From Colius striatus (lineage: Eukaryota > Chordata > Aves > Coliiformes > Coliidae): 64,000 nt of DNA. The position numbers and the translations under genes were made by a program. The stretch's first letter is position 1. Each line of letters starts with the position of its first letter. This document shows, one piece after another, positions 18,301 to 21,300 of the stretch. The notes beneath the pieces were generated by a model. That model saw nothing but the letters and a program-made list of their open reading frames with translations. It was not told where the DNA came from and did no database searches. The stretch is taken from positions 7,988,350 to 8,052,349 of the forward strand of contig NC_084773.1 in assembly GCF_028858725.1 (NCBI RefSeq). The letters are read 5' to 3'.

Positions 18301-21300
18301 CTCTGCTAAAACTGCTGTTGCTGGAGCAAAGATCTCCTTGTGTTTCCTTTGTGGACACAAGCTGCAAACATGTTTTTAATGTTAAATATACATCTCATTG
18401 AAATGCATTTTTTGTAGTTCTTGATGATTGCTTATACTTTATTATAAGATGGATTTTCTTTCCGTACAGTTCCACAGACATCAGTGGTCATTTAGTGAGG
18501 ATCTACACTGTGATAATAAAGACATGATCACCTCAACAGGTTTATACTGGAATATACACCTTTTGTTACTAGCAGTGGAGACATATAGGAAGATGCATCC
18601 TCTATGGATGTCAGGATACAAAAAAATTTCACTGTCCTTTAAAATAAATGTACACAGCTGTAACTAATGAAAAAGAATTTGCATTCTTAATGTGTTATGA
18701 TATTGTCATTGATTTAGGCAGGACTAAGGACACTTCATGATATTGGCCCTGAAATACGCCGAGCTATATCCTGTGACTTGCAAGATGATGAACCAGAGGA
18801 AAACAATCCAGAGGAGGAGGAAGATGTTTATAAAGTAATGTCAGAACACAGCTACATGAATTCTTTTATCCTATAATATGAGATTAAAGAATAATCTTAT
18901 CCTTCAATGTGGAAGAATAATAATAATCCCTGAAATCAGCACAATATATAAATATTTTCTAAAGAAGTATATTTTATATGTATATATAAAAATGGTATTA
19001 CCAGGATGCTTACATCTCATCCTAAATTTATGAAACAGTTCTTGCAGAGTAGTTCTTCTAATTCTTTGCCATTAATTTGTTTTTTCTTAAGTGAATCCTA
19101 AGAAAAGGTAGGAACTTTGCTACTATAAAAATTTGAGATGGCAAAGTTTAAACTGAAAGTGTCTTAACTTCTGCAATGGTAGACAGGAGGAAGAGAATGA
19201 AATTCTATGCAGCCAAACCACAACAGACACAAAGCTGTGTATTTTCAAATGAATGCCTGAAATTACACAATTCAACCGAATATGAATGCCATTTCCAATT
19301 TCCTGTGAGGGATATCAATAAGAATCAATCAGAAAAACGGATTGGTTTTCCTTTTCTGTGCTATAGATATCATACTGCAGACACATCTGCTCTTCTGAAA
19401 TACTGGTGAAAACTTATTTTTCCTTGCTGGGTGACAAATGGTTTGCAGATCATTCCCAATTATAATACCAACTTTAGGTGTTCACCATTAGGTATTATAA
19501 TTGGGAATGATCTGCAAACCATTTGTCACCCAGCAAGGAAAAATAAGTTTTCACCAGTATTTCAGAAGAGCAGATGTGTCTGCAGTATGCCTCTGCTGTA
19601 ATTACTTCAGAAGCCCCATGGCTTGCTCTTATCCTTTGTGAAAAAGGAGGATGTGGTACTGGAAACAGGGCTGCAGCTTATACCATCAGGAGATGCATTT
19701 CTCTGCCAACCATCATTACCTCCTGTCTTCTCTAGATTGAGCTTCAAGACAGACTGCTGTCATCCAGGACCCACACCTGGCTAGACAGGGAGGCTACCTA
19801 ATCTGGGTCGGCTGTAAAGGAGCTGCATGTCATAGTCATAACTTAGCACTTCATTCTCTCTTTCACCATCCATCACACTCTCAGGGCTTATAAAGAGTTA
19901 CTACTCTTTCTTGTAGCTCTGCAAGAGGAAAGAATGGAAGCACTGAAGCTTAATGTTACCTCCTTGAGATATGCTTGCAAGCTGTTGCATGGCACTCCAT
20001 CCTGTCTGAGTGATGCCTGTTGAAAACCGATGCTGTGGGAGAATAGGAGGGAATTCCACCACAGTGTTCTCGAAAATTACACAGACACGGCCCTTTCTGA
20101 GGATGTTGTTGCATGTTCATGAATGGGAACCTAGGTTTCTCCTGTGTAATAAAATGTGGAGAAAGCTGGATGTCACATTTAGTTGTATGGAAAATGATCA
20201 CAGCATAATGATGATTTGACTCTGAAATACAAATATTGTCATTATCACAGTCACATCTTACTTCAGGAGATCCCATTTGAAGCATTGTAAAATTAGAAAG
20301 AGAACTCACAGATTATTTTAACTGATACTTTTGTATGCATGTAGGAGAGAAAAGTAAGTTATCACTGTCGAAAATATGTTCTGCTAAGGTATCTGATGTA
20401 ATTCTTTCTTTTTCTTTCCCTAAAACAGAGGAATGGTGCCCTCTTTGGCAACCACATAAACCATATTAGCAGTGACAGACGAGATTCATTTCAACAGATC
20501 AACACCACACACCGTCCCTTACATGTTCAGCGGCCTTCAATTCCATCTGCAAGTGATACTGAGAAAAATATATATTCTCAGGCAGGAAATTCTGTGTACC
20601 ACAATCATCATAATCACAACTCAGTAGGAAAACAAGTTCCAAATTCAACAAATGCCAATCTCAATAATGCCAACGTGTCCAAAGTTCATGGAAAACACAC
20701 AAATTTTGGAAAACACACAAATTTTGGAAATCATGAGCATAGATCTGAAAATGGGTACCATTCATACTCCAGAACGGATCATGAGAAGCGCAGAAGGCCA
20801 AGCAGTAGGAGGTAAACTTACAAATACGTGTTTGTTTTTGAATAAGTTTGTGCATTACAAATACACCATAAGAAAACTTACGCTATGTGAAACGTTTAAA
20901 TATTTAGCACCATGTCTGTTGGCTACTGATGTATGAAATGTATTTAAAATACAGCTCTGATGTATGGGAAATGTGTATCACTTTATTAAGGTTTTAAAGT
21001 AGTAGTTTTCTTTAAAGTAAAATTATTAATTACAGCACAGACACTGTAATGACCAATGAATTTCTCTTAAACTACCTGATTTTAAAGTGTCTTTTTCCTT
21101 ATTTTCATGACTTACCTGGTTAGAACCCGCTACTATGAAACATATATTAGGTGAGTTAATATTGTTCTGACATAATTAAAAAGGACAGTAGTTTCTTTTC
21201 CTTTCTTCCTTTTCTCCTTTTCCAGTTCCCCTTTTCCTATTACATTTTATTTTTTTTAAAGCAGTACAGTTTACAAAAATAACTGTATGACAATGCATAT

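Follow-up and report, generated by a model that had tools for sequence, protein, structure and literature searches.

Short-range template switches during DNA replication are the closest described source of perfect inverted repeats. According to the available excerpts of Walker et al. 2021 (PMC7954356), template switches in great apes create such repeats, and the copied length has a median of 12 bases and a maximum of 128 among 1,503 gold-standard events. Perfect stems born by template switching, such as that of MIR633, are also described in the accessible part of a study of RNA genes (PMC8794818, Monttinen and Loytynoja 2022). The largest pattern of this kind given there is up to 59 bp and failed quality control. 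Two other systems have a similar geometry. Human-chimpanzee microinversions, as presented in excerpts of PMC8755829, are short segments that lie between inverted repeats of 3-75 nt per side. Inverted Alu pairs are treated in the available sections of a review (PMC7999016), which states that hairpins and recombination become more frequent when the arms are long and identical and the spacer is short. With a 12-bp spacer, inverted Alus stalled replication forks in E. coli, in yeast and in primate cells, whereas a 52-bp spacer led to frequent fork stalling in E. coli only (PMC7999016).

The locus described here is an inverted repeat within the CACNA1D gene of Colius striatus, in a 64-kb stretch of DNA that was analysed whole (the window). 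Its left arm (19371..19469, + strand) and right arm (19491..19589, - strand) are each 99 bp long, and the right arm is the exact reverse complement of the left. They are separated by an unstranded 21-bp spacer (19470..19490), which would form the loop of an RNA hairpin and in which a 3-bp GGU/ACC stem is predicted. A first-pass annotation of the letters had reported perfect 99-bp arms around a 21-bp spacer, and this was borne out by a repeat search and again by an exact-complement script (100% complementarity, 99/99 positions, gap of 21 nt).

The repeat is exceptional within its surroundings. Among 24 inverted pairs in the window with arms of at least 18 nt and lying within 2 kb, the 99-nt pair is the longest and the sole perfect one; the remaining 23 have arms of 18-31 nt and are 70-94% complementary. 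A stricter finder (10-base seed, arms of at least 20 nt, at least 80% complementarity, starts no more than 1 kb from each other, with low-complexity arms removed) was applied to 264 kb, comprising the window and 20 evenly spaced 10-kb stretches (200 kb), a sample insufficient for a genome-wide rate. It returned the 99-bp repeat and one other pair (24 nt, 83%, spacer 539), and it omits several 20-31 nt pairs found by the looser repeat search. By simple arithmetic, 99 perfect pairs of non-repetitive sequence are beyond chance. Elsewhere in the window, a hairpin-like inverted repeat with 18-nt arms, 89% complementarity and a 3-nt spacer is present at 7825-7863, in an upstream CACNA1D intron.

The first-pass assignment to a CACNA1D intron likewise held, with tblastn exons on both sides and GT...AG borders. 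The host intron spans 18835..20428 on the + strand (1,594 bp), its borders being read from the letters. It is preceded by a coding exon at 18718..18834 (+), which has 87% tblastn identity to a Cav1.3 probe, and followed by a coding exon at 20429..20811 (+), which begins RNGALFGNH, has 64% tblastn identity and likewise has borders taken from the letters. We take these to be exons 42 and 43 in the human numbering. The C-terminal CACNA1D exons lie on the + strand in consecutive order and extend to about 28.6 kb, as located by tblastn with Cav1.3/Cav1.2 probe stretches. The repeat is 536 bp downstream of one exon and 839 bp upstream of the next, these being the nearest exons found; the latter distance is measured to the border read in the letters, and the raw tblastn start gives 836 bp.

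Two further features were observed. The downstream coding exon contains a perfect 18-bp tandem repeat of 2.3 copies (20689-20730); read in frame, it duplicates six residues of the Cav1.3 C-terminal tail, a duplication absent from the human probe. Separately, matches to ion-channel exons (PF00520) recur on two contigs of the same genome in mirrored order, at C39:41374904-41389676 (+) and C40:915468-929894 (-), and also at C39:21285927-21287780 and C40:2027145-2028974. Their scores are mostly equal (97.7/97.7, 77.7/77.7 and 62.4/62.4), with one unequal exon (135.7/101.4). These mirrored loci may represent the two members of a Z/W or neo-sex-chromosome pair, or else a second haplotype that was retained.

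The CACNA1D repeat shares features with each of the described systems. Like the short-range template switches of great apes, it is a discrete reverse-complement copy beside its source with a short spacer, and unlike typical members of that set it has 99 copied bases (PMC7954356). As in the template-switch hairpins and microRNA loci of the RNA-gene study, it would be a perfect stem made in one step within a transcribed region, and it is longer than those stems of 'tens of bases' (PMC8794818). Its 21-bp spacer falls within the 17-33 range of the human-chimpanzee microinversions, whereas its 99-nt arms exceed the flanking repeats of those events (PMC8755829). The inverted Alu pairs likewise combine long identical arms with a short spacer, and the CACNA1D spacer falls between the two Alu spacers of 12 and 52 bp (PMC7999016). 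By analogy with these pairs, a locus with a 21-bp spacer may be mutable. Among the listed matches from the open-access literature, judged by titles and the starts of abstracts, there is no description of this locus and no bird survey of template-switch inverted repeats.

The repeat was probably generated by one recent inverted duplication, through a short-range template switch during DNA replication. Under the four-point model of such events, the growing strand would leave its template, 99 bases would then be copied in reverse from the opposite strand or from the new strand itself, and a return to the first template would yield a perfect inverted repeat with a 21-bp spacer. An identical reverse-complement copy lies close to its source, its borders are discrete, and its length is within the published range. 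Length also speaks against this origin, with 99 bases far above the great-ape median and the largest pattern of the RNA-gene study both shorter and of failed quality. The copy is thus far in the tail of published template-switch lengths, and still inside their range. The first-pass annotation had favoured a one-step template switch, and that reading is still the best fit, given the discrete borders, the lack of similarity between the flanks and the precedent of a published class.

Comparison of the arms suggests that the event is young. With zero differences between them, the 95% upper ages are 12.6, 8.0 and 5.0 million years and the medians 2.9, 1.8 and 1.2 million years, for 1.2, 1.9 and 3.0e-9 substitutions per site per year, respectively, and on the assumption that the arms are neutral and unconverted. 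We infer that the duplication arose in a single step, is recent and is neutral. The direction of copying was addressed with Markov models trained on the CACNA1D introns of the window. Log-likelihood ratios for the left arm as the sense copy were -0.14, -0.29, -1.62 and -2.43 at orders 0-3, which assigned 56-63% of 250 held-out true-sense segments correctly, and +0.22 at order 4, for which the corresponding figure is 86% without hold-out. Strand composition is no guide to which arm was copied from the other.

The sequence around the switch points was examined by modelling the empty site with either arm as the original. No shared bases (zero microhomology) are present at the switch points in either polarity. 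Neither empty site folds better than shuffled sequences, whereas a pre-existing hairpin would; the z values are -1.05 and -0.56 with the left arm original and 0.31 and -0.56 with the right arm original, for folds in which DNA energy parameters were requested and their actual use is unconfirmed. Thus, with neither microhomology nor a pre-existing hairpin, nothing local accounts for the site of the switch, which counts against this origin. Short direct repeats near the inner borders, TTCACCA (7 bp) and TTAGGT (6 bp), look by eye like no more than chance. Further partial copies of the arm were sought up to 500 bp on either side, and none was above shuffles (fractions 0.68, 0.98, 0.48 and 0.18).

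The same product might instead have come from repair of a broken chromosome, either as a templated insertion by microhomology-mediated break-induced replication or by end joining with copied filler. This route is unlikely, yet it is the strongest of the alternatives, and it predicts an identical final sequence. Excerpts of PMC8755829 put forward repair of this kind as the source of microinversions that have inverted repeats on either side, and the accessible part of PMC8421209 ties templated insertions to the microhomology-mediated pathway. The absence of junction microhomology from both modelled empty sites argues against it. By sequence alone, break repair and template switching are inseparable.

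It is less likely again that the repeat is a palindrome or quasi-palindrome of greater age, in which gene conversion or recurrent correction by template switching has held the two arms identical. Template switching does perfect imperfect inverted repeats, as the available text of PMC7954356 describes. The flanks bear on this directly, since an old palindrome would be expected to retain decayed arms outside an identical middle. In-register complementarity beyond the arms is 21/60, 46/150, 92/300 and 135/500 positions (27-35%), against approximately 26% expected from the base composition of the window. The values at the shorter flank lengths are slightly high, as at 21/60 and 92/300, which is the direction expected of an old palindrome. 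However, the best local inverted match between the outer flanks is not clearly above shuffles at any of the four lengths (fractions 0.22, 0.80, 0.08 and 0.16 for 60, 150, 300 and 500 bp), so that no decayed complementarity is plain in flanks of 60-500 bp, and the full identity over 99 bp ends at the borders. The lack of inverted similarity outside the arms favours one discrete copying event over an old palindrome maintained by conversion. The first-pass annotation had described the borders as abrupt, which these comparisons confirm; ongoing gene conversion, which it had also entertained, is less supported, with no decayed complementarity left beyond the arms.

There is a small chance that one of the arms is not in the bird at all and was added by a chimeric fold-back read or a consensus error. 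Library preparation is known to produce fold-back chimeras, and the evidence for the repeat is a single assembly. Against this, both outer flanks continue into the same intron and on to the expected exons, and the 64-kb window contains zero N. Because the flanks are continuous on both sides, an artefact would require two switches within one stretch.

Transcripts of the intron are predicted to fold into a hairpin in which all 99 bp of the stem are paired; the predicted energy is -181.9 kcal/mol, compared with a shuffle mean of -46.5. The low energy is a direct consequence of the repeat and adds no independent evidence of a role for the RNA. Most likely, the predicted pre-mRNA hairpin is removed with the intron, inert and without consequence. 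It is very unlikely that the hairpin is under selection as a young source of small RNAs, an editing substrate or a splicing structure. The predicted stem speaks for such roles, and in human CACNA1D, constructs with exon 42 or 43S yield long and short C-terminal variants (excerpts of PMC7781618). On the other side, no Rfam family matches the window, and the repeat is hundreds of base pairs from either neighbouring exon (536 and 839 bp). A bolder version, with the same slight probability, is that a single switch made a lineage-specific intronic hairpin and that this hairpin has been retained through an action of its duplex on CACNA1D pre-mRNA, either by recruiting ADAR or by influencing the choice of C-terminal splice form downstream. 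If true, a single slip in copying would have rewired a calcium-channel isoform switch.

A known RNA family or microRNA gene was rejected as an identity for the repeat, with 0 Rfam matches at the gathering score anywhere in the window. A viral origin was also dropped, as an exact 23-mer of the arm matched 0 stretches in viral contigs in one scan.

The first-pass annotation had recognised no transposon in the arms and had proposed that they be searched for genome-wide. In the bird's own 1.21-Gb genome (191 contigs), the matches to an arm are this locus and its partner arm only, in a search that passes over very common words and scores only the best candidates, and so is no proof against a repeat family. 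The queries were the arm alone (E<=0.001) and the intervals 19100-19490 and 19470-19900, which include flanks (E<=10). No second allele on a separate contig matched the arm or flank queries. A foldback element, MITE or other palindromic transposon has the matching shape of long terminal inverted repeats around a short centre, and is the least probable origin of all, with just the two arms found within the limits of that search in place of the many copies expected of a family, and with no direct repeat of 1-12 bp flanking the outer borders as a target-site duplication. The first-pass view thus stands, and the search gives no sign of a palindromic-transposon family.

The CACNA1D repeat is a neat mutational scar that belongs, as a long example, to a known class of mutation, and it is most likely inert. 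It adds to the great-ape catalogue a clean inverted copy from the gene of another vertebrate, one that is unusually long, appears young and was probably made in one step. If the repeat is polymorphic, it could be used to measure the lifetime of such a hairpin and to learn whether a pre-mRNA duplex of 99 perfect pairs is edited or processed.
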